From NCBI RefSeq assembly GCF_030540835.1, contig NZ_JAUOEK010000117.1, positions 1-64,000 of the forward strand: 64,000 bases of DNA, read 5' to 3'. Positions 21,548 to 32,565 of this stretch are shown here, in pieces. The position numbers were made by a program, and so were the translations under genes. A model generated the notes under the pieces. It saw only the letters and a program-made list of their open reading frames with translations, was not told the DNA's origin and did not search any database. The stretch's first letter is position 1; each line of letters begins with the position of its first letter. The stretch is from Flavivirga aquimarina. GTDB taxonomy: Bacteria > Bacteroidota > Bacteroidia > Flavobacteriales > Flavobacteriaceae.

Positions 21548-22090
21548 TTGAATAAAGCTGAACTTAAAGACTTTTTAGACGTTAAAGTTTCACAATACAA
21601 TAACCTAAAGTTTATTGAAAGTGACCCTATACAAATCCCGCATCGGTTTAGTAAAAAAGAAGACATAGAAATCTCAGGCTTTTTAACAGCCACTATAGCT
21701 TGGGGAAATAGAAAAAGTATTATTAATAATGCGAAGCGTTTAATGGAATTGCTAGACAATTCTCCTTATGATTTTGTTTTAAATCATTCGGAAACTGATT
21801 TAGAAAAACTGAGCCCTTTTGTCCATAGAACTTTTAACGGTAATGACTGCATTCAGTTTATAAAATCCCTAAAGCACATTTATAAAAAACATGGTGGTTT
21901 AGAGTCAGTTTTTTCAAAACATGCGAAAACGGAATCACTACAAGTATCTATCTCAAAATTTAAATCAACATTCTTTGAAATTGAACATTTACAAAGAACA
22001 CAAAAACACGTAAGTGATCCTTTAAAAAATTCTAGGTCACTACCTTTTTTTTTAAATAATTTAATTCCTACATCATTTAATGATATATAA
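21548..22090 (+). pseudogene. TIGR02757 family protein, N-terminal fragment (interrupted gene)
   Basis: This frame encodes 180 residues whose first 162 (to DPLKNS, position 22033) align throughout with the complete copy at 31474-32247, including SDPIQIPHRF, ATIAWGNRKSIINNA and HRTFNG. After that the match stops abruptly and an unrelated AT-rich tail leads to a stop at 22090. The missing C-terminal part is found 10.3 kb away, on the same strand, from about 32302. No stop or frameshift occurs in the fragment, so the break looks recent. It starts with TTG. TIGR02757 proteins are conserved in Bacteroidota and have no well-established function; the family has DNA-glycosylase-like (HhH-type) features. 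Confidence 0.9.
22039..22048. repeat. Left copy of 10-bp direct repeat flanking the island
   Basis: ACTACCTTTT lies 6 bp past the end of homology in the N-terminal fragment. An identical copy lies at 32281-32290, 12 bp before homology resumes. It may mark the insertion ends. Joining the two copies does not restore the reading frame, so it is not a simple target duplication. Confidence 0.5.
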
Positions 22091-22125
22091 ATACTATATT
22101 TATTGATTCAAAAAACTCTCTCTAA

Positions 22126-22335
22126 ATGAATCGAATTCGAGTAATTCTTGACGAAAAAGGCATAAAACAAACTTGGTTAGCCGAAAAGCTTAATAAAAGC
22201 TACAATATGGTAAATAGCTATGTGACAAATAAGAGGCAACCGAGTGTAGAAGTTTTATATCAAATAGCAGAACTATTGAATATTAGTGTGAAGGATTTAT
22301 TAACTGACAACCAAGAGTTTAATGCAGATAATTAA
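22126..22335 (+). CDS. XRE-family DNA-binding regulator
   Basis: A 69-residue single-domain helix-turn-helix protein: IKQTWLAEKLNKSYNMVNSYVTNKRQPSVEVLYQIAELLNI covers the five-helix Cro/CI fold. It is the first gene of the island operon and overlaps the helicase gene by 14 bp. Its size and position match controller proteins that time expression of restriction-modification genes, so autoregulation of this operon is a fair inference. Confidence 0.85.
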   Translation: MNRIRVILDEKGIKQTWLAEKLNKSYNMVNSYVTNKRQPSVEVLYQIAELLNISVKDLLTDNQEFNADN

Positions 22336-25300
22336 CAATAAAGACAGCCGATTACTAGATGTTTTAAAAACACTGGTGAATGAAAAATCCAATATTTATT
22401 TAAGTTGTAATTATTTCACATCATTTGCAGTTTTTGAGCTTACCGAAATCTTAAAAAAATCAAATAAAGTTGAAGTTTTACTCGATTACCAATTTCAGGA
22501 TGAGGAAGATTTCAAATTTATTCATAACGATAATGAAAGCCAACTCAATTTAAAGTTGGACAGGAAGCATAGAATAAATCAAGTACTAGGTTTAATTGAA
22601 GATAAAATTCAATTTCGGAAAGGCAGTATTGGTAATCAAAACATTCTTATTGTTGAAAAAGAAGGAATATCTACTTGCTTTACCTTAACTCCAATGAATT
22701 TAGATTCTGTTAGTTTAGGAGTGCTACCTTCAGGCATACCAATCTTTATCAATTCATTTGAAGACATCAACAATCAATACTTAAGTTTATTTCAGAACTC
22801 GTGGAATAATAGTACGCAATCCTTAAATGACTTAGTTCTTGAGAAATTAGAAAAAGGCATTAGAGGTTATACAGGTGAAGAGATATATAAATACTGTATT
22901 CAAGAAATATTCCATTATTCTACCATTAGTGAACGAGCTGATGAAAAATTACAGAAAGTTGGCTTCAAAGATTCTAAAGTATGGAACTTACTGTATAATT
23001 TTCAAAAGGATGCCGTTATTGGAGCAATTGAAAAAATAGAAACCTATGGTGGTTGCATTATTGCAGATTCAGTAGGATTGGGTAAAACTTTTGAGGGGCT
23101 TGCGGTAATGAAATACTATCAATTGAGAAATAGTAGAATTCTAGTATTAGCACCTAAAAAGCTACGTGAAAATTGGACGGTTTATCAAATGAATGACAAA
23201 CGTAATATTCTAGCAGAAGACCGTCTTAATTATGATGTATTAAACCATACAGACCTTTCAAGAGCTACGGGAAAATCAGGTGATATAGACCTAGAAATGA
23301 TTAATTGGGGGAATTATGATTTGGTGGTTATAGATGAGTCACATAACTTCCGAAACAACCCTACAAAACGAGGTATAACTCGTTACAGACGTTTAATGAA
23401 CGATGTTATCAAATCAAATATTCGCACCAAAGTTTTAATGTTATCTGCTACACCAGTCAATAACAAAATGAATGACTTAAAAAATCAGATAGCCTTTATA
23501 ACGGAAGGTGATGACCAAGCATTCAGCTCTTATGGAATAGATAGCATTACTCAAGTCATGCGAGATTCTCAACGTAGGTTTACACAATGGTATCGTGATG
23601 ATGACCCAGACGACCTTGATGTAAATGAGTTAATGGAAAGTTTAGATGGTGCATATTTTAGAATCCTAGATATGCTTACTATAGCAAGGTCTAGAAAACA
23701 TATCGAAAAATATTATGACACTTCAAATATTGGTAAATTTCCAACTCGTTTAAAGCCAGATACGGTACATCCCGAAATTGATACCAAAGGAAAATTTAGA
23801 GATATTGGTCAAGTTTATGATGAGATAAGTACACTTACACTAGCCTCTTATACGCCTTTAGGATATGTAAGAGCAGATAAACGAGATTTCTATGAGGAAA
23901 AATACGATATGCAGACGTATACAGGTAGCGTATTTAGACAAGTAGACCGTGAACAGAGTTTGATATATTTAATGCGTGTGAACCTTTTAAAACGTCTAGA
24001 AAGCTCTATTCATTCCTTTAAATTAACTACAGAAAAGTTAATTGAATTGGTAAATGCTAATTTGAAGCAACTTAAAGACCATCAAAACGGAGAAACTGAT
24101 TACGACCTCAACATTACAGATGTAGATATTGATGATACAGAACTGGAAGATTTATTAGTTGGTGGAAAAACCAAAGTATTAATTCAAGATATTGATACGA
24201 TTCGTTGGAGACAGGATTTAGAACATGACAAGCGTATTTTAACAAAGTTATTAGGGAATATCAAATTAATTGATGTAGAACGGGATGCAAAACTTAAAGA
24301 ATTAAAAGACCGCATTTCTGAAAAGGTAGACAAACAACCGTACAATAAAGGAAATAAAAAGGCTATCATTTTTACAGCTTTTGCTGATACTGCAAACTAT
24401 TTGTACAAAGAATTAAGTGGTTGGTTAAAAGAAGAAAAAGGGCTCAATAGTGCTTTAGTAACAGGTTCTGGTAATAACAAAACCAATATGAAGGATTGTC
24501 TAAGCGACCTCAGCTCGATTTTGACCCATTTCTCACCTCGTTCAAAAAACAGAAAAGATATTTTTCCAGATGTCACCAGTGAGATAGATATTTTGTTTTG
24601 TACCGATTGTATTTCAGAAGGTCAAAATCTTCAAGACTGTGATTATCTAGTTAACTATGATATTCACTGGAATCCAGTACGTATTATTCAACGTTTTGGA
24701 CGTATAGACCGTATAGGTTCTATTAATGAAAGCATCCAACTAGTAAACTTCTTCCCTTCAATGGAGTTAGACCAGTTTATAGATTTAGTGGCTCGTGTAC
24801 AAGGTCGTATGGTAATGCTAGATGTATCTGCTACAGGTGAAGATAATGTGATTAGTAGGTCTAACCGTGAAATGCAAGACCTCGATTATCGTAAAAGACA
24901 ATTAAAACAATTACAAAATCAAGTATTGGATTTAGAAGATATTGATGGAAATATTTCTATTACCGATATGACTTTTAATGATTTCAAGATTGATTTAGAA
25001 AAAAGTTCCGACCAGCAATTAGCAGATTTAAGCGATATTCCACCAGCATCTTATGCTGTGGTAAAATCTAATCTTTCTGAGGTTAAAGATGGTGTGATTT
25101 ACTGCTTAAAAGATACAAGTGCAGATTACAAAGACAAGCTTAAAAATAACATATTATATCCATTCTTTTTAGTTTACATTAGTCTAGATGGTACACACAT
25201 GGTTAAACCATCTCAATCGAAAAAAGCTCTAGATTATTTCCGTAAACTGTGTATGGGGCAAGATGGTGTATTAACAGATTTAGTGGCTCAATTTGAGAAA

Positions 25301-25489
25301 GAAACCAAGAATACCAAAAATATGACGGCTTACACCAAAGCTTTAAAAAATACCATACAAGAAGTTATTGGGGTTCAAGAAGAAATAGGATTAGATTCCC
25401 TAGCTAGTCAAGGTGGTACAACATTGTTTAGCAAAGCTATGAGTGATGAAGATTCGTTGGAATTAGTAAGTTATTTAATAATCAAATAA
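22322..25489 (+). CDS. SNF2/DEAD-like helicase with degenerate PLD-like N-terminus
   Basis: A 1055-residue superfamily-2 ATPase. Helicase motifs are clear: Walker A DSVGLGKTFEGL (about residues 249-260), motif II VVIDESHNFRN, motif III MLSATPVNN, and the C-terminal RecA lobe with AIIFTAFADTANYL, TDCISEGQNLQ and NPVRIIQRFGRIDRIGS (motif VI). The first 180 or so residues resemble the PLD-type N-domain of such helicases (LSCNYFTSFAVFELTEIL; FTLTPMNLDSVSLGV; FINSFEDINNQYLSLFQNSW), but no HxKxxxxD signature is visible, so nuclease activity there is doubtful. In the operon it precedes a DUF4391 gene and Type III-like mod and res genes. A role in DNA translocation during defence is inferred. Confidence 0.88.
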   Translation: MQIINNKDSRLLDVLKTLVNEKSNIYLSCNYFTSFAVFELTEILKKSNKVEVLLDYQFQDEEDFKFIHNDNESQLNLKLDRKHRINQVLGLIEDKIQFRKGSIGNQNILIVEKEGISTCFTLTPMNLDSVSLGVLPSGIPIFINSFEDINNQYLSLFQNSWNNSTQSLNDLVLEKLEKGIRGYTGEEIYKYCIQEIFHYSTISERADEKLQKVGFKDSKVWNLLYNFQKDAVIGAIEKIETYGGCIIADSVGLGKTFEGLAVMKYYQLRNSRILVLAPKKLRENWTVYQMNDKRNILAEDRLNYDVLNHTDLSRATGKSGDIDLEMINWGNYDLVVIDESHNFRNNPTKRGITRYRRLMNDVIKSNIRTKVLMLSATPVNNKMNDLKNQIAFITEGDDQAFSSYGIDSITQVMRDSQRRFTQWYRDDDPDDLDVNELMESLDGAYFRILDMLTIARSRKHIEKYYDTSNIGKFPTRLKPDTVHPEIDTKGKFRDIGQVYDEISTLTLASYTPLGYVRADKRDFYEEKYDMQTYTGSVFRQVDREQSLIYLMRVNLLKRLESSIHSFKLTTEKLIELVNANLKQLKDHQNGETDYDLNITDVDIDDTELEDLLVGGKTKVLIQDIDTIRWRQDLEHDKRILTKLLGNIKLIDVERDAKLKELKDRISEKVDKQPYNKGNKKAIIFTAFADTANYLYKELSGWLKEEKGLNSALVTGSGNNKTNMKDCLSDLSSILTHFSPRSKNRKDIFPDVTSEIDILFCTDCISEGQNLQDCDYLVNYDIHWNPVRIIQRFGRIDRIGSINESIQLVNFFPSMELDQFIDLVARVQGRMVMLDVSATGEDNVISRSNREMQDLDYRKRQLKQLQNQVLDLEDIDGNISITDMTFNDFKIDLEKSSDQQLADLSDIPPASYAVVKSNLSEVKDGVIYCLKDTSADYKDKLKNNILYPFFLVYISLDGTHMVKPSQSKKALDYFRKLCMGQDGVLTDLVAQFEKETKNTKNMTAYTKALKNTIQEVIGVQEEIGLDSLASQGGTTLFSKAMSDEDSLELVSYLIIK

Positions 25490-26260
25490 GTGGCGTTTCA
25501 ATATAACAACATATTAAATATTCCTGAACGAAGCATTTTAGATAAACGCTTAACTAAAGCCTTTTTTCTAAAAAATTTCTCGTTATCTACTGCTGAAAAA
25601 AAGCTATTAAATAATAATATTCAAAGCATGACTTGGTTAGCAAGTATTAAACCAGCTACGATTAATATTCCTGCTATTATTAATTCAGATTATAATTATG
25701 AAGAAATTCAAATTATGGTGTGTACAATTGCGGATAATAAGCTAAACGAACTTGCAGAAAAATGTATGACATTATTTCAAAAGTATATTCCTTACCAGAT
25801 GCTTGTTATTGTTGAAGATACTAATGAATTTAAAATCAATGTATGTGATAAGCGTATTAATAAAGCAGAAACAAATAAACGTACTATTGACCGTTTCTTT
25901 ATAACAAATAATCTATCAAAACTTTATAAAAACAACCTCAGCGAATTATTTTTTAAGGCACTAGATTTTAAAAATTTAGATAAAACCAATCTGGAATTGC
26001 TTTATAAAAGCTATATACAAGCTGTAGTGCAATTTCAAGCTGCAAGTATTACAGGTAGCTACCAAAAGCGAACTAACAAACGTACTGCTGAAGATATGCA
26101 AAATCTTGAAGCTATAGAATTATTGGAGCGAGACATAATTTCATTAACAAGTCAGATAAAAAAAGAAAATCAACTGAATGAAAAAGTGCAGTTGAATATT
26201 AAAATACAAGAAAAACGTAAAGAGATACAATCTCTTAAAGATACACTAACCAAAGTATGA
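25490..26260 (+). CDS. DUF4391 domain-containing protein
   Basis: A 256-residue protein that I place in DUF4391 by its pattern: N-terminal RSILDKRLTKAFFLKN, TWLASIKPATINIPA, the strand-rich EEIQIMVCTI core and a C-terminal coiled coil (about 200-254, EAIELLERDIISLTSQIKKEN and on). Proteins of this family accompany a helicase and a methyltransferase in restriction-like clusters, but their biochemical role is not established. It starts with GTG one base after the helicase stop codon and overlaps the methyltransferase gene by 4 bp (ATGA), so translation is coupled. Confidence 0.8.
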   Translation: MAFQYNNILNIPERSILDKRLTKAFFLKNFSLSTAEKKLLNNNIQSMTWLASIKPATINIPAIINSDYNYEEIQIMVCTIADNKLNELAEKCMTLFQKYIPYQMLVIVEDTNEFKINVCDKRINKAETNKRTIDRFFITNNLSKLYKNNLSELFFKALDFKNLDKTNLELLYKSYIQAVVQFQAASITGSYQKRTNKRTAEDMQNLEAIELLERDIISLTSQIKKENQLNEKVQLNIKIQEKRKEIQSLKDTLTKV

Positions 26261-28089
26261 GCATGGATAAAATAGAAAAAGGTGATAGCCTTTCTCAAAG
26301 CGAAAACATTGTAGAAACTAATATTGATACACTTAAAAGTTTATTCCCTGAAGTTGTTACCGAAGGAAAAATAGATTTTAAAGTACTACAAGACCTTTTA
26401 GGTGAAGAATTAGAAGAAGGTGAAGAATACTACCGTTTTACATGGGCTGGAAAAGCCAATGCCAGACGTGAAGCCCAAAAACCTAGTACTGGTACATTAC
26501 GTCCAGCTAAAGATGAGAGCGTAGATTGGGAAACCACCCAAAACTTATACATTGAGGGTGACAACCTTGAAGTACTTAAGCTGCTGCAAAAAAGCTATGC
26601 TGGTAAGGTTAAAATGATTTACATAGACCCACCTTATAATACTGGTAAAGACTTTGTATATAAAGATAATTACAAAGATAACTTACGCAATTATCAAGAG
26701 GTTACTGGGCAGATAGATGAAGAAGGTAATAAACTAAGTACTAATAGTGATAGTGATGGTCGTTATCATTCTAACTGGCTCAACATGATGTACCCTCGTT
26801 TACGTTTGGCTCGAAATTTATTGAAAGATGATGGAGTCATATTTATTAGTATTGATGATAATGAAGTAGAAAATTTAAGTAAAATTTCAAATGAGGTTTT
26901 TGGTGAAGAAAATTTCTTAACAAGATTTATTTGGAGAAGAAGAAAAACTCAAGCAAATCTAGCTAAACACATTGCGCCTGTCCACGATTATATTTTGGTC
27001 TATTCAAAAAATTCAAATAAATTAAAATTGAATAGAATTCCTTTTTCTGATGAATTTATAAAAAAATCATTTTCCAATCCTGATAATGATAAAAGAGGAT
27101 TGTATCAAACAGGGCCTTTAGCTAGACCTGCTAATTCAAATAATAAGGAATATGAACTAGAGTTGCCGAATGGAAGAAAAGTTAAAGCAAAATGGTCTTG
27201 TTCGCAACAAACTTTCGATGAGTATGTAAAGGATAATAGACTTGTCATTCCTAGAAATGGAGAAGGAATGCCGAGGAAAAAGATTTTCCTATCTGAGTTA
27301 GAAGGATTATTACCTAATACTTGGTTGGATAATATTGCTTCTAATGACGATGCCGCTAAAGAAACTGCTGATATTTTCGGAACAAATGCTTATTTTTCTT
27401 ACCCTAAACCTACTAAACTTATGGAGTTTTTGTTAAATTTTGGTTCATCAGCTGGTGATATTGTTTTAGATTTCTTTTCAGGTTCTGCCTCGCTTGGGCA
27501 TGCGGTATATAACTTAGCAGATAAAAAAGAACCTAGAAAATATATTTTAGTTCAATTACCTGAAAAAATTGAGACTGCTAATCCTGCTTTTAAAGATGGA
27601 TTTGAAACGATTTCAAGATTAGCGATTGAAAGGCTCAAAAGAGTATCAAAAAAAATAGGCAATAAGGAAGCTGACTTAGGTTATAAAGTATTTAAACTAG
27701 ACACTTCGAATATTAAAGGTTGGGATGGTAAACCAGCAAATCTAGATGAAAGCCTTTTTGATGCCCAAGATAATATTAAAACAGACCGTACAGAACATGA
27801 TGTATTGTATGAAATATTACTTAAATATGGTTTAGACCTCACCTTGCCTATTGAAGAAAAAGTAATTGAAAACAAGACAGTATTTAGTGTTGGATATGGA
27901 GCTTTATTTATTTGTTTAGCTGATACTATTACCAGTAAAGTAGCAGAAGGTATTGGTGCTTGGAAAGAAGAACTAAAACCAGAAGTTTGTAGAGTGGTGT
28001 TTAAAGACTCTGGCTTTACCGATGTTGAGAAAACCAATAGTGTACAAACACTTAAACGTTTTGGTATCACAGAAATAAAAAGCATCTAA
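26257..28089 (+). CDS. Type III-like DNA methyltransferase (Mod)
   Basis: A 610-residue adenine-specific (beta-class) methyltransferase. The catalytic motif IV DPPYNTGKDF is near residues 124-133 and the SAM-binding motif I region DFFSGSASLGHAVY follows much later (about 405-418), the IV-then-I order of Type III Mod proteins. Between them lies a region of about 180 residues that should hold target recognition. An N-terminal acidic segment (LLGEELEEGEEYYRFTWAGK) is typical of Mod proteins from this arrangement. Its ATG overlaps the DUF4391 stop. It would protect host DNA and supply target specificity to the Res subunit. Confidence 0.93.
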   Translation: MSMDKIEKGDSLSQSENIVETNIDTLKSLFPEVVTEGKIDFKVLQDLLGEELEEGEEYYRFTWAGKANARREAQKPSTGTLRPAKDESVDWETTQNLYIEGDNLEVLKLLQKSYAGKVKMIYIDPPYNTGKDFVYKDNYKDNLRNYQEVTGQIDEEGNKLSTNSDSDGRYHSNWLNMMYPRLRLARNLLKDDGVIFISIDDNEVENLSKISNEVFGEENFLTRFIWRRRKTQANLAKHIAPVHDYILVYSKNSNKLKLNRIPFSDEFIKKSFSNPDNDKRGLYQTGPLARPANSNNKEYELELPNGRKVKAKWSCSQQTFDEYVKDNRLVIPRNGEGMPRKKIFLSELEGLLPNTWLDNIASNDDAAKETADIFGTNAYFSYPKPTKLMEFLLNFGSSAGDIVLDFFSGSASLGHAVYNLADKKEPRKYILVQLPEKIETANPAFKDGFETISRLAIERLKRVSKKIGNKEADLGYKVFKLDTSNIKGWDGKPANLDESLFDAQDNIKTDRTEHDVLYEILLKYGLDLTLPIEEKVIENKTVFSVGYGALFICLADTITSKVAEGIGAWKEELKPEVCRVVFKDSGFTDVEKTNSVQTLKRFGITEIKSI

Positions 28090-28094
28090 CGTCT

Positions 28095-31000
28095 ATGAAG
28101 ATTCAATTTGACAGTAGTTTAGACTACCAAAAAGATGCTATTAAAGCTATTACAGATGTATTTCAAGGTCAAGAAGTATGTGAGGCTAACTTTACGGTAT
28201 ACTCACCAGAATTTTTAGCTAAACAACAAAATATAGCTTTTAATGATATTGGTTACGGTAATCGTTTAACACTAACAGAAGGTAATATAGTTGAGAATGT
28301 TCAAAACATTCAACTTTCTAATGGTTTAAAACCTTCAGATAGAAGTGGTATCGATAGAAATCATCTAGATTTTACTATTGAAATGGAAACAGGTACAGGA
28401 AAAACCTATGTGTATCTACGTACTATTATGGAACTATACAGAAAATATGGTTTTTCAAAACACATTATTGTAGTGCCTTCTATTCCAATAAAAGAAGGTG
28501 TTTATAAATCACTTCAAATCACCCAAGAGCATTTTAAGCAATTATATGACAATATCAACTACAATTATTTTATATATGATAGTAGTAAACTAAATGAAGT
28601 TAGAGACTTTTCTACTAACGATGGTTTAGATATTATGGTCATTAATATCGATGCCTTTCGTAAAAGTTTCGAGAATCCAGATGATGCTAAAAAGAAAGCA
28701 AACATTATACACCGATATAATGATAAACTAGGTTATAAACCTTTAGACCTCATCAAAAACACCAATCCTGTCGTTTTTATTGATGAACCGCAAAGTACCA
28801 TGAGTACACCTCTAGCTAAAAAAGCGGTACAAAGTTTAAATCCATTAGCCATATTACGTTATTCTGCTACACATAAGGAAAAAGTGAATTTAATGTATAA
28901 ATTGGATGCTGTTGATGCTTATGATAAAAAGTTGGTGAAGCAAATTGAAGTGGGTTCTATCCAAACAGAAGGTATGAATAATCAAGCCTATATAGGTTTA
29001 TTAGATGTACGTTCCAGAGGCGGTAATATTGATGCTCGTGTTGAGGTAGATGCTTTACAAGGTGGAAAGATTAAACGAGTAAAAAAATGGGTAAAACAAA
29101 ATCAAGATTTAGAAGAACTTACTGGACGTATTGAATATGAAGGGTATATTATTAAAGATATCTATGTTCAAGATGGATATATAGATTTTACCAGTCGTGA
29201 TGAAGAGTTAAAAGTTGGTCAAGCTATTGGTAGCGTTGATGATAAGCAAATTAAAACAGCTTTAATTAGTAAAACTATTGAGGCTCATCTAGATAAAGAA
29301 CTTGTTCTTAATCTTCAAGGCATTAAGGTATTGAGCTTATTTTTTATTGATTCAGTTGGTAAATACCGTGTATACGATGAAGATGGAAATTCATCTTTAG
29401 GAGAATATGCCAAAATCTTTGAAAATGAATACCAGAGACTCATCAAGAAGACTAAATATGCTAGTCTTTTTGGAGAAATGAAAGATGTTGAGATAAATGC
29501 TTCAGAAGTGCATAATGGGTATTTCTCAATAGATAAGAAAAGTAAAGCCAGTAACAAAAAAGAAAAGTTTGAATATTTTAAAGATACTACTGGTAAAGTA
29601 AACGCTGATGAAGACACCTATAACCTCATCATGCGTGATAAGGAAAAATTATTGAGTTTTGATTCTAAGTTGAGGTTTATATTCTCACATTCGGCATTAA
29701 AAGAAGGATGGGATAATCCAAACGTTTTTCAGATATGTACATTAAAAGATGCTGGTAATTCAGATATAAGAAGACGGCAGGAAATTGGTCGTGGCTTACG
29801 TTTATGTGTAAATCAAGAAGGTGAACGCGTTTATGGTTTTGAGACTAATACGTTAACAGTAATGGCTACAGAATCTTATGTTGATTTTGTAGATAATCTT
29901 CAAAAAGAAATAGAAACTGATACAGGAATTCGATTTGGTATTTTAGAATCTCACAGTTTCAATAATGTTGTAATAAGTATTGATGGTGATGAAGTAAATT
30001 ACTTAGGTCAAGAGAAATCAGAACAGTTATATGATTACCTCATCTTAAAAGGTTATATAGATACCAGAGGAAAAGTTCAAGATTTATTACGTGTTGCCAT
30101 CAAAGAAGATAATGTTGAACTTCCTGAAGAGTTTACAGAAAGTGAACATATTGAAAAACAAATTTTAAGCAATCTAAAAGATGCTGCTGGAAAACTTCAA
30201 ATTAAAAATCAAGATGATAAAAAGAGAGTTAAAGTAAACAGACGTATTCTTAATAGTCCTGAATTCAAAGAACTTTGGGAGCGTGTTAAATACAAAACAA
30301 CATTTGCTGTAGACTTTGATTCAAGTAACCTTGTAAAAGAGTGTATAAGAGCTTTGGACGATAGATTAAAGATTACAAGAGGTAAGCTTCATTATACTAA
30401 AGTTAAGCTAGAAATGAACATTGGTGGACTTCAAGTTAATGAAGACCCAAAAACTTATTCTGAGAATGTTAAAGAAGAAGTTGATGTGTTACCAGACATT
30501 GTTGGATATCTTCAAAATGAAACACAATTAACACGAAGGTCTATTGTTAAGATTTTAACTGGTACAAATAAGCTTCCTTATTTTAAAATAAATCCTCAAA
30601 AATTCATTGAAGGTTGTATTGACATCATTAATGAACAAATGCGTTTACATATCATTGATGGTATTCAGTATAAAAAAATCGGAGATTCTGAGTATTACAG
30701 TCAAGAGCTATTCGAAAATGAAGAATTATTTGGGTATTTACAAAGTAATTTAAAGGAAAGCGAAAAATCACCTTATGACTATGTAGTTTATGATTCCACT
30801 ATAGAATCTAAATTAGCAAACGACTTTGAAAATAGTGATAACATTTCTGTATATGCTAAACTTCCAAACTGGTTTAAAATAGATACACCATTAGGAACTT
30901 ATAATCCTGATTGGGCTATCCTCTGGAAAGATGGTAATGATGAAAAACTATACTTTGTTGTAGAATCTAAAGGAACTACCTTATTGGGAGATTTAAGACC

Positions 31001-31112
31001 AAAAGAACAAGGGAAAATTGATTGTGGTAAAAAACACTTTAAAGCTTTAGATACTGAAATGATAGTAGCTGCTAATATGGAAGATGTAACGAATCAAGCT
31101 TTGATGAGGTAA
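28095..31112 (+). CDS. Type III-like restriction subunit (Res)
   Basis: A 1005-residue helicase-nuclease. Motif I METGTGKTYVYL is near residue 97, motif II VFIDEPQSTM near 227, motif III RYSATHKEK, motif V EGWDNPNVFQICTL and motif VI RRQEIGRGLRL. At the C-terminus NPDWAILW...YFVVESKGT (about 937-960) fits a PD-(D/E)xK endonuclease core. It starts 5 bp after mod, the normal partner arrangement: Mod-Res complexes cut when two sites are met in suitable orientation. All motifs look intact, so the pair is probably active. Confidence 0.93.
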   Translation: MKIQFDSSLDYQKDAIKAITDVFQGQEVCEANFTVYSPEFLAKQQNIAFNDIGYGNRLTLTEGNIVENVQNIQLSNGLKPSDRSGIDRNHLDFTIEMETGTGKTYVYLRTIMELYRKYGFSKHIIVVPSIPIKEGVYKSLQITQEHFKQLYDNINYNYFIYDSSKLNEVRDFSTNDGLDIMVINIDAFRKSFENPDDAKKKANIIHRYNDKLGYKPLDLIKNTNPVVFIDEPQSTMSTPLAKKAVQSLNPLAILRYSATHKEKVNLMYKLDAVDAYDKKLVKQIEVGSIQTEGMNNQAYIGLLDVRSRGGNIDARVEVDALQGGKIKRVKKWVKQNQDLEELTGRIEYEGYIIKDIYVQDGYIDFTSRDEELKVGQAIGSVDDKQIKTALISKTIEAHLDKELVLNLQGIKVLSLFFIDSVGKYRVYDEDGNSSLGEYAKIFENEYQRLIKKTKYASLFGEMKDVEINASEVHNGYFSIDKKSKASNKKEKFEYFKDTTGKVNADEDTYNLIMRDKEKLLSFDSKLRFIFSHSALKEGWDNPNVFQICTLKDAGNSDIRRRQEIGRGLRLCVNQEGERVYGFETNTLTVMATESYVDFVDNLQKEIETDTGIRFGILESHSFNNVVISIDGDEVNYLGQEKSEQLYDYLILKGYIDTRGKVQDLLRVAIKEDNVELPEEFTESEHIEKQILSNLKDAAGKLQIKNQDDKKRVKVNRRILNSPEFKELWERVKYKTTFAVDFDSSNLVKECIRALDDRLKITRGKLHYTKVKLEMNIGGLQVNEDPKTYSENVKEEVDVLPDIVGYLQNETQLTRRSIVKILTGTNKLPYFKINPQKFIEGCIDIINEQMRLHIIDGIQYKKIGDSEYYSQELFENEELFGYLQSNLKESEKSPYDYVVYDSTIESKLANDFENSDNISVYAKLPNWFKIDTPLGTYNPDWAILWKDGNDEKLYFVVESKGTTLLGDLRPKEQGKIDCGKKHFKALDTEMIVAANMEDVTNQALMR

Positions 31113-31126
31113 AGTAGTTTAGTAAT

Positions 31127-31460
31127 TTGAAAAAGAAAATTTATGAGTACGAATGCAAGTTTAAACAGGTCAAGAAAATTTTCAATATTGTAAATGAGAA
31201 TAAATCACCGTTTCCTCATTTCGTTTTGATATCTGATAAATTGCATTCTTTCTCTGATTTTAAAGATATACCAGATGAATTATACTATCAGATTATTAAA
31301 GAAGGTAAACCGGAAAAAACACTTGTTTCTAAATACATCTAATATTCAAAGTATTGAAGCTCGTTTAAAAATTTATCTTAAAGATAATTTAAAATATCAT
31401 TTTGGAGTTGTTGTCGAATTAAAAGGAAATTGTAATTCTCAAATAATGTTAAAATATTAA
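31127..31460 (+). pseudogene. Small island gene, possibly frameshifted
   Basis: Two overlapping frames make protein-like sequence: 31127-31342 (71 residues, TTG start, KKKIYEYECKFKQVKKIF...SPFPHFVLIS) and the adjoining frame that continues to 31460 (SIEARLKIYLKDNLKYHFGVVVEL). A six-A run at 31314-31319 lies where a single-base indel would join them into one protein of about 110 residues. I do not recognise the family. It follows the res gene by 14 bp. It could equally be one genuine 71-residue protein. Confidence 0.45.
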
Positions 31461-31473
31461 TTTAAATAATTAG

Positions 31474-32247
31474 CTAGAAACCTTCAAAAACTCCTAAACC
31501 AAACAAGGCAAAATCGTATTTTACAGGGTCATTTGGGTCAAGATTCCTTAAAGCTGTATCTAATTCTGATAGAGCTTTACCGTCATTCTGTTTTCTTTTT
31601 AATAACCCCAACTTTCTAGCTACATTTCCTGAGTGTACATCTAAAGGACATGATAATGTTGATGGAGAAATGGATTTCCAAATTCCTAAATCTACACCAG
31701 CATTATCATTACGACAATTCCATCTAAGCCACATATTTAAACGTTTAGCAGCTGAACCTCTTAAAGGGTCGCTTATATGTTTAGTTGTTCTTTGTGGATG
31801 CTCAAGCTCGAAGAATATTTTTTTAAACTCAGATATAGCATATTGAGTAGAATTATTGATTACATTTTTTGAAATAATATGTTCTAGACCATTGTGATTA
31901 GAATATATATTCCTCAAGCTTTTCATAAAATAGCTCAAATCAGTACTATTGAACGTTCTATGTACGAACCCATCAAACTTTTCAAGGTTATCATCTGTAT
32001 GATTCATAATGAAATCGTATGGTGAATTTCCCACCAATTCCATCATTCTATTAGCATTATTTATGATGCTTTTTCTATTACCCCAAGCAATAGTAGCAGC
32101 AAGAAAACCAGATATTTCCATATCTTCCTTTAGATTATACCGATGAGGTATTTGAAGTGGGTCGGAGTCTATAAAATCTAATTTATTGTATTTTTCTACT
32201 TTACTATCTAAGAATTCTTTAAGTTCGTTTTTTTGAAGTTTCATCAT
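31474..32247 (-). CDS. TIGR02757 family protein, complete island-borne copy
   Basis: A 257-residue complete member of the family that is broken at 21548 and 32302. It aligns with both fragments: roughly 60 percent similar-to-identical with the N-terminal one by eye and closer with the C-terminal one (CPLDVHSGNVARKLGLLKRKQND, FALFGLGVFEGF). It is on the opposite strand to the fragments and to the restriction genes and has its own -7 promoter element. The family has no firmly assigned function; the HhH-glycosylase-like end (CPLDVHSGNVARKLGL) suggests nucleic-acid binding. Here it most likely restores the function lost by the insertion. Confidence 0.92.
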   Translation of the reverse strand: MMKLQKNELKEFLDSKVEKYNKLDFIDSDPLQIPHRYNLKEDMEISGFLAATIAWGNRKSIINNANRMMELVGNSPYDFIMNHTDDNLEKFDGFVHRTFNSTDLSYFMKSLRNIYSNHNGLEHIISKNVINNSTQYAISEFKKIFFELEHPQRTTKHISDPLRGSAAKRLNMWLRWNCRNDNAGVDLGIWKSISPSTLSCPLDVHSGNVARKLGLLKRKQNDGKALSELDTALRNLDPNDPVKYDFALFGLGVFEGF

Positions 32248-32252
32248 ACTTA

Positions 32253-32260
32253 CAAAGGTA
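32253..32260 (-). promoter_or_regulatory. -7 element of the island-borne TIGR02757 copy
   Basis: TACCTTTG on the minus strand matches TAnnTTTG and ends 5 bp before the ATGATG start. Transcription would begin close to the start codon, giving a very short or no leader. Confidence 0.5.
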
Positions 32261-32271
32261 AAGTTTAAATA

Positions 32272-32565
32272 ATGTTATTTACTACCTTTTATACATTGAA
32301 TAATATGTTTTTACGCTGGATGGTTCGAGACGATGATGCAGGTGTTGATTTTGGCATTTGGAAAAGTCTCTCTCCCTCTAAATTGTCGTGTCCTCTAGAT
32401 GTACATTCTGGAAACGTAGCTAGAAAACTGGGATTATTAAAGCGTAAGCAAAATGATGCAAAAGCCCTATTAGAATTAGATACAGCCCTAAGAAAATTAG
32501 ATGCCAATGATCCAGTTAAATACGATTTTGCTCTTTTCGGATTGGGTGTTTTTGAAGGGTTTTAA
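32272..32565 (+). pseudogene. TIGR02757 family protein, C-terminal fragment
   Basis: From about 32302 the translation (NMFLRWMVRDDDAGVDFGIWK and onward to FGLGVFEGF) matches the C-terminal third of the complete copy at 31474-32247. It is the missing end of the fragment at 21548-22033; about 15 bp (five residues in the complete copy) are lost between the two. The frame is open with no decay. An ATG at 32272 is within non-homologous sequence and may not be used. Confidence 0.9.
32281..32290. repeat. Right copy of 10-bp direct repeat flanking the island
   Basis: ACTACCTTTT, identical to 22039-22048. It lies just upstream of the point where the C-terminal fragment becomes recognisable. Confidence 0.5.

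Follow-up and report, generated by a model that had tools for sequence, protein, structure and literature searches.

The 10,271-bp segment that interrupts a TIGR02757/DUF2400 gene in Flavivirga aquimarina is with a probability of about 0.9 a decayed member of a family of large serine recombinase (LSR) integrative defence elements, which carry a whole spare copy of the gene that they target. The window, i.e. the whole stretch of DNA that was analysed, comprises 64,000 nucleotides. An earlier note on this DNA had described the N- and C-terminal parts of one TIGR02757 gene on the same strand about 10.3 kb apart, a Type III-like cassette between them and, on the opposite strand with its own -7 element, a full divergent TIGR02757 gene. 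This description was confirmed in all parts, and the features of the locus are as follows.

21548-22033, + strand: N-terminal fragment of the resident TIGR02757/DUF2400 gene (TIGR02757 positions 1-141; groups with the genus in the tree)
22034-32304, no strand: what remains of the inserted element (10,271 bp), with the recombinase gene and the left attachment site lost
22039-22048, + strand: ACTACCTTTT, located at the eroded left end, where it repeats part of the right-end arm in the same direction
22126-22335, + strand: small ORF of 69 aa, helix-turn-helix-like by eye
22322-25489, + strand: HKD+Snf2-type helicase, 1055 aa (homologue in 6 of 12 elements)
25490-26260, + strand: DUF4391 protein, 256 aa
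26257-28089, + strand: Type III DNA methyltransferase (Mod), 610 aa
28095-31112, + strand: Type III restriction enzyme (Res), 1005 aa (five other elements encode a Res 73-79% identical to it)
31474-32247, - strand: complete, by sequence foreign TIGR02757 copy, 257 aa (TIGR02757 positions 1-227)
32253-32260, - strand: -7-like element (TANNTTTG) of the replacement copy, TACCTTTG
32280-32304, - strand: right attachment-site arm of the element (+ strand TACTACCTTTTATA...), shared with the Tenacibaculum element
32305-32306, + strand: putative AT crossover dinucleotide, which starts the Met codon of KRINMFLRW
32307-32565, + strand: C-terminal fragment of the resident gene (model match 32302-32550, TIGR02757 positions 147-227; groups with the genus in the tree)

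The resident gene is cut after position 22033 and resumes at 32305, where comparison with other junctions places the restart of resident sequence at the AT core. By the same comparison, 15-18 bp of the resident gene are absent immediately to the left of this core, and the left end is therefore eroded. The event had looked recent in the earlier note; with the recombinase gene and the left attachment site lost, it is not pristine. A repeat search performed on each of the two ends on its own, in which the ends were not compared with each other, gave no repeats. In comparisons of nucleotide identity with nine congeners, the N-fragment reached 79-85% and the C-fragment 81-84%, but the complete copy only 69-71%. 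The phylogenetic tree agreed with these values, as the fragments cluster with 10 congeners and the complete copy does not. On this sequence evidence the fragments are the genus's own allele and the complete inverted copy is foreign. The complete copy scored above the curated cut-offs of both TIGR02757 (224.3 bits vs 139.2) and PF09674 (DUF2400; 283.1 vs 25). A near source in phages or plasmids was considered and rejected, the best matches being 42.6% identical among phage records and 55.9% among plasmid records, with one weak match (36%) in the viral collection.

The same arrangement was found in 11 further genomes, which belong to the genera of Lacinutrix, Tenacibaculum and Flavobacterium and in which both fragments lie far apart on one contig, split at the same codon, with a complete copy between them. 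Because the split recurs at the same dinucleotide in these 11 other genomes, it is not due to chance. With the window included, a full copy lies between the fragments in 12 of 12 genomes in which the two fragments share a contig at a distance of more than 5 kb. The site is uninterrupted in close relatives: a single full-length TIGR02757 gene is present in 11 of 11 other genomes of the window's genus and, in the genus of Lacinutrix venerupis, in all 12 of the other genomes. The earlier note had proposed an integration strategy in which the element breaks a conserved gene and brings its own version, to be examined by means of related genomes, further islands in the same gene and a tree of the complete copy against resident orthologues; the empty sites, the recurrent islands and the tree all support it. 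Several loci that lack parts of this arrangement speak against it. In the draft assembly G840 an N-fragment is followed by an element-like arm, with neither a full copy nor a C-fragment, and G549 resembles it in decayed form, while G315, G529 and G737 combine a full copy with a C-terminal scar downstream of it, and neither an N-fragment nor an LSR was found there. G173 was dropped as a split locus, since its two pieces, which lie at contig ends, share an overlap of 127 identical bases and thus represent one gene cut by the assembly; G500, G641 and G816, which also have pieces overlapping at contig ends, were left out of the counts.

In all 12 elements the insertion point is the AT of the Met codon in KRINMFLRW, a conserved stretch of TIGR02757 that contains the most highly conserved codons of the gene. 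The relatives have a 2-bp AT core in common between attL and attR, whereas the window has preserved the right junction only; in G724, G686 and G690 host and element differ in the base that follows AT, and the shared core is therefore AT. Around it the element's attachment site forms a near-palindrome, in which the two arms of one element have a mean identity of 0.79 over 24 nt (11 elements), compared with 0.57 for arms of different elements and 0.30 for shuffles, and the window's right arm matches that of the Tenacibaculum element. Seven elements are inserted in forward orientation (Lacinutrix, Tenacibaculum G446, G579, G672, G695, G820 and G954) and five in reverse (the window, G447, G599, G724 and G902). 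An attP that completes the target gene in frame, as in islands of the icd type, is absent from all 11 complete relatives, in each of which the frame of the N-fragment runs into a stop 3-66 bp past the AT core. The recombinase would insert at this AT either way round, and a half-gene in attP could mend the target in one orientation only. Insertion in both orientations would therefore explain why a whole autonomous copy is carried instead of such a half-gene.

An LSR gene, intact or in pieces, is present in 11 of 11 complete relatives, located 16-31 bp from the end opposite the TIGR02757 copy in eight and elsewhere in three. Resolvase, Recombinase and Zn-ribbon domains were found in all three of the relatives' LSRs that were tested with Pfam. 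In a tree, the 13 LSRs from the TIGR02757 site form one clade with an SH-aLRT support of 100, separate from 17 of 17 related LSRs of the family search. Three LSR queries against the window's insert gave chance-level matches only (best E 0.39), and one LSR query against the window's genome, with three of ten candidates scored, gave no match at E<=1e-20. Insertion of the window's own element by the LSR route is accordingly argued from its right end, its site and its relatives, since it contains no LSR and no clean left site. The cargo, as far as annotated in the relatives, is largely devoted to anti-phage defence. With PADLOC, the window's Mod and Res matched Type III models strongly, so that the Mod + Res pair of a Type III restriction-modification system is present, and the helicase matched 'HKD+Snf2'. 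The four-gene set of helicase, DUF4391 protein and Type III genes is found in 6 of 12 elements, and the window's cassette matches that of the Lacinutrix element (Res 79%, helicase 78%), which also has, in the same place, an ORF 75% identical over 63 aa to the 69-aa ORF.

The complete TIGR02757 gene reads inward from one end of the element, at a distance of 64-100 bp in 8 of 11 complete relatives and of 1.1-3.1 kb in the other three. TANNTTTG is located upstream in 11 of 13 copies examined, where 1.0 would be expected from shuffles. Replacement copies show purifying selection by their sequence ratios, with dN/dS of 0.08 between the copies of the window and Lacinutrix and of 0.04-0.12 in 7 of 7 pairs, which share members. 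These properties bear on one alternative, in which the gene is dispensable and its site nothing more than an LSR hot spot, with the extra TIGR02757 copies as passengers that play no role in the life of the element. The gene is indeed not strictly essential, since no TIGR02757 match was obtained in 17 of 99 relatives and in 29 of 397 genomes of the family, some of which are incomplete; moreover, three of 11 elements carry the copy away from the end, and the site in G840 is occupied without a copy. A passenger would, however, hardly be expected to lie within the insert of every one of the 12 genomes, in most cases no more than 100 bp from the attachment site, with a promoter-like element and low dN/dS. 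Near ten related LSRs (genomes with a single TIGR02757 match), no duplicated or split gene was seen, and no TIGR02757 match either, in the fetched stretches, which may not span the elements in full and in G135, G237 and G408 stop early on one side. The hot-spot explanation is consequently improbable. By the same count, a target-gene copy was rejected as a general rule for related LSRs.

The carriage of a spare copy would replace the broken host enzyme, which would cut the cost of insertion and make loss of the element costly to the host. With such a copy and its promoter-like signal, a host would probably retain the gene function and in return come to depend on its island. In the window a deletion appears to have taken the recombinase gene and the left attachment site, and the element should therefore be locked in place. 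Excision of LSR elements is possible with the aid of a directionality factor, and the element might accordingly turn the gene off and restore it by excision, the extra copy being incidental. Such regulated gene integrity is very unlikely, because an inserted element brings along a complete copy that shows signs of purifying selection, which means that the function need not be off, and because the window's element should be unable to excise. Chance disruption of the resident gene by homologous recombination with foreign flavobacterial DNA, in which TIGR02757 lies beside a Type III system, would agree with the fact that in other genomes relatives of the complete copy occupy the resident locus as the only TIGR02757 gene (in G099 and G319 in inverted position). 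It is barely credible, however, as it would choose neither one dinucleotide nor both orientations; the break in many genomes falls on a single dinucleotide, the arms are palindromic, and an LSR gene lies at one end or close to it.

With regard to the function that is preserved, the predicted structure model of the TIGR02757 protein (pLDDT 92) had EndoIII and OGG1 as best PDB matches in Foldseek, the top three with probabilities of 0.99-1.00 and E values of 0.027-0.11, none at E<=0.001; a search of solved structures by sequence gave one chance match (E 0.33). On this lead the broken host enzyme is a candidate helix-hairpin-helix DNA glycosylase (EndoIII/OGG1 fold). The replacement copies may themselves be altered at the attB site. 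Its right half scores lower in them than in intact genes (median 9.1, n=15, vs 15.8, n=147), where copies of the same lineage are not independent, 2 of 17 replacement copies were missed by the search pattern, and the 147 intact rows include at least nine genomes twice as well as some sole copies of the replacement type. The left half shows no clear drop (13.5 vs 14.6 in intact genes, p 0.08), and the changed Phe (position 173) is less divergent than six alignment columns located elsewhere. Immunity of the copy to re-insertion through a recoded attB is therefore suggestive only. As a point against the main explanation, the Flavobacterium replacement copies G447, G579 and G690 are placed in the tree among Flavobacterium residents, outside the nine-member clade.

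Taken together, the LSR element with its spare gene may, as a tentative generalization that is somewhat less likely to be right than wrong, represent a third way to survive hitting an important gene. A palindromic AT core would allow orientation-free insertion, which would be accompanied by a whole target gene beside the attachment site; the site in the copy would be recoded against a second hit, and the copy could persist as the sole allele of the host after the element is gone, even in inverted position. The target would be the segment encoding the active site of a DNA-repair enzyme, suited to this use because it is nearly invariant. Bringing the whole gene would answer how an integrase without orientation control can target conserved coding sequence. 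The locus also suggests a route by which a horizontally carried allele replaces a host gene at its own locus, and it points to a family of defence islands that their carriers may be unable to lose, and to a set of flavobacterial recombinases with a defined attachment site. Since naturally split-and-replaced strains exist, the function of TIGR02757 becomes testable.

Literature searches that combined LSRs and their target genes with rescue or replacement copies showed no such element among the papers listed. Four known systems are closest. The passages on gene-disrupting LSRs in one paper report 33 LSRs that target one site of a prolyl isomerase gene (PMC10083194), which resembles the present convergence of diverse LSRs on one conserved coding site; they describe genes as disrupted and mention no replacement copy. 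The window's Mod and Res correspond to a Type III restriction-modification system, to which an HKD-Snf2 helicase and a DUF4391 protein are added here. In helper-embedded PICIs, captured late genes are proposed to act as an intact backup of the gene that is interrupted (PMC10111431); as far as described there, these are phage satellites in prophage late genes with the capture in a variable zone, whereas here every one of the 12 complete elements has the copy, in most cases adjacent to the attachment site. Integrative islands at icd and tRNA genes carry the replacement end of the gene in attP (relevant sections of PMC10111431 and PMC12884075). The likeness to islands that restore a tRNA end, which the earlier note had drawn, holds in so far as a conserved gene is the target of an integrase and its function is preserved by sequence that the element brings. 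It does not extend to the means, as those islands bring part of a gene within attP, whereas here the target stays broken and a whole autonomous gene is carried beside the attachment site, in either orientation.

The host's own TIGR02757 (DUF2400) gene is split by an inserted element, and a complete copy of the same gene is carried between its two fragments:

21548-22033, + strand, N-fragment of the resident TIGR02757 gene (model positions 1-141)
between the fragments, 10,271-bp insert encoding a helicase, a DUF4391 protein, Type III Mod and Res, and a complete TIGR02757 gene
31474-32247, strand opposite to the fragments, complete TIGR02757 gene within the insert
up to 32565, + strand, C-terminal part of the resident gene on the other side of the insert

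A search of the window's genome revealed no TIGR02757 match beyond these three. Nucleotide identity to the nine congeners compared was 79-85% for the N-fragment, 81-84% for the C-fragment and 69-71% for the complete copy. In a TIGR02757 tree of 174 rows, with the columns of the host attachment site (attB) left out, the window's fragments clustered with 10 congeners (SH-aLRT 96) and the Lacinutrix fragments with Lacinutrix (SH-aLRT 86); the window and Lacinutrix copies clustered (93) with sole copies of other genomes. Nine Flavobacterium replacement copies formed one clade (99) separate from the Flavobacterium residents, and those of the comparison genomes G447, G579 and G690 were placed among these residents. 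One full-length match was present in 11/11 other genomes of the window's genus and in 12/12 genomes that share a genus with Lacinutrix venerupis. A match was found in 368 of 397 genomes of a family sample; that some genomes have no TIGR02757 gene is a point against the replacement reading.

Named genomes were scanned with residues 1-190 of the complete copy as query; of the 219 relatives found, the best 80 were listed. In Lacinutrix venerupis DSM 28755, an element of 24.3 kb separates the N-fragment from the C-fragment and carries a codirectional complete copy together with cargo that includes the window's cassette (Res at 79%, helicase at 78%). The same layout was found in a Tenacibaculum isolate (20.1 kb) and in Flavobacterium sp. 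NRK F7 (24.0 kb). In the genus of the Tenacibaculum isolate a match was present in 141 of 146 genomes, and three of the 146 (G446, G902, G954) had a split gene with a full copy. In the genus of NRK F7, 389 of 398 genomes had a match and 28 had at least two; 26 of these were re-searched along with four genomes of weak best match, the other two being covered separately. Both fragments and a full copy were located on one contig in seven genomes (G447, G579, G599, G672, G695, G724, G820), a C-fragment adjoined or lay near a divergent full copy in four (G574, G639, G686, G690; N-fragment on a separate contig in three of them), and G454 had an N-fragment and a copy. The remaining 16 cases were contig-end overlaps, decayed or frameshifted genes, short scars and second copies. 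At one contig end of G340, a genome of the family sample, a C-fragment adjoins the beginning of a divergent copy. Counting the window, 12 genomes carry the two fragments on a single contig at a distance of over 5 kb, and in each of the 12 a full copy lies between them.

Four genomes count against this pattern. In G840 (locus L275, 8671 onward) the N-fragment is followed by an element-like arm, and no full copy was found in the draft assembly; ORFs beyond the arm resemble two from the elements of NRK F7 and G579. In G315, G529 and G737 a full copy is accompanied by a C-terminal scar, and neither an N-fragment nor an LSR (large serine recombinase) was found; the G315 copy groups with its congener (SH-aLRT 86, same tree). 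In G315 a metal-efflux island (L106, 3447-15111; CusB/HlyD-like, AcrB-family, OEP, cation efflux), in which no recombinase was found, sits between the full gene and a C-terminal scar starting at the same codon, and the final 267 bp are duplicated with 94.8% identity. In Flavobacterium flevense (L147, 11374-11430), a 19-residue C-terminal remnant downstream of an intact copy is possibly a very old scar.

An LSR, intact or in pieces, was present in 11/11 complete elements besides the window's, and its Pfam domains were confirmed in the three relatives tested. The 13 LSRs from this site grouped together to the exclusion of all 17 related LSRs of a family search (SH-aLRT 100), in which related LSRs occurred in 16 of 397 genomes. 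The host gene is interrupted at the AT of the KRINMFLRW Met codon, and since the following base differs between host and element in G724, G686 and G690, the shared core is AT alone. The two arms flanking the core are inverted copies of each other, their 24-nt identity being 100% in the Tenacibaculum element and 58-88% in the other ten; mean identity was 79% within an element versus 57% between elements and 30% after shuffling. Outward from AT, the arms have the approximate consensus GTtnAtACgGGTAATTAAgGTaGt. The AT core is its own reverse complement, and both element orientations occur (7 and 5); for Bxb1 and another system, the direction in which a serine integrase inserts is published to be determined by the central dinucleotide (Ghosh 2003, Smith 2004, as cited in PMC3783163). 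In 11/11 complete relatives the reading frame of the N-fragment reaches a stop 3-66 bp past the core, and the element site (attP) therefore does not complete the target gene.

The elements range from 7.3 to 37.9 kb, with the complete copy 64-100 bp from one end in 8/11 (1.1, 1.9 and 3.1 kb in the other three) and the LSR 16-31 bp from the opposite end in 8/11. Among 13 copies with leader examined, 11 have TANNTTTG, which we take to be the Bacteroidota -7 element, before the start (shuffles predict 1.0), and the remaining two carry TANNTTTA. Nine elements encode proteins resembling the small serine resolvase found in the Lacinutrix element. A protein of 462-512 aa is encoded in six (Lacinutrix L215, 8359-9744, and five others) and adjoins the LSR in the elements whose gene order was mapped; the Lacinutrix protein had no Pfam match, and by eye some motifs of this group resemble family A DNA polymerase. 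The window's cassette was found in 6/12 elements, further cargo including BREX genes (G695) and PDC-M01/PtuA-like genes (NRK F7). In the G599 element (L251) the LSR gene is shortened and two ORFs are, judged by eye, presumably IS21-like genes; possible Wadjet-like remnants were also named by eye.

The window's element has a clean right junction, with an arm resembling that of the Tenacibaculum element, and lacks 15-18 bp of the host site at its left end. No recombinase was found in it; that the window by itself shows no LSR counts against assigning it to such elements. By comparison with Lacinutrix, a single deletion reaching from the host gene almost to the small HTH-like gene would explain both losses. 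Because the left host site is incomplete and the recombinase absent, the element should be unable to leave. At both insert ends ACTACCTTTT occurs in the same direction (22039-22048 and 32281-32290), which may be a remnant of a second, tandem element or of the deletion.

A structure model (pLDDT 92) weakly resembles the EndoIII and OGG1 glycosylases. Lys168 and Asp203 of the complete copy, invariant among 27 sequences, are from motif comparison presumably the catalytic pair, and neither resident fragment should be active because the insertion falls between them. TIGR02757 homologues of about 30-36% identity occur in phage records H2-H14 (Bacteroides, Phocaeicola, Parabacteroides and Alistipes phages), two of which are annotated N-glycosylase/DNA lysase. 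For replacement copies, dN/dS was 0.04-0.12 in 7/7 pairs, some copies recurring across pairs. Their attB stretch is recoded, which may confer immunity to re-insertion. Two of the genomes whose sole copies cluster with the window and Lacinutrix copies, G099 (L083, 9692-10462) and G319 (L084, 9647-10411), have this gene of the replacement type in inverted position at the resident locus, and a search for fragments found none in either. Decay of scars with persistence of the carried copy would predict this arrangement, which is possibly the end state following element decay.

We assign the islands to LSR integrative elements, the new feature being a whole stand-alone copy of the target gene beside the attachment site. 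No other element of this kind was found in searches of an open-access library from which many subscription papers are missing. According to PMC10111431, known integrases that strike a gene mostly complete the target from attP, some instead leaving it disrupted, and a backup role is proposed for the late genes that satellites capture. Whereas attP completes the target gene for icd/attP-type integrases, that of the TIGR02757 elements does not, and the target stays split. In contrast to satellites, whose backup copies derive from captured late genes, the TIGR02757 elements carry a full copy of their own target in 12/12 genomes that have the two fragments over 5 kb from each other on the same contig.
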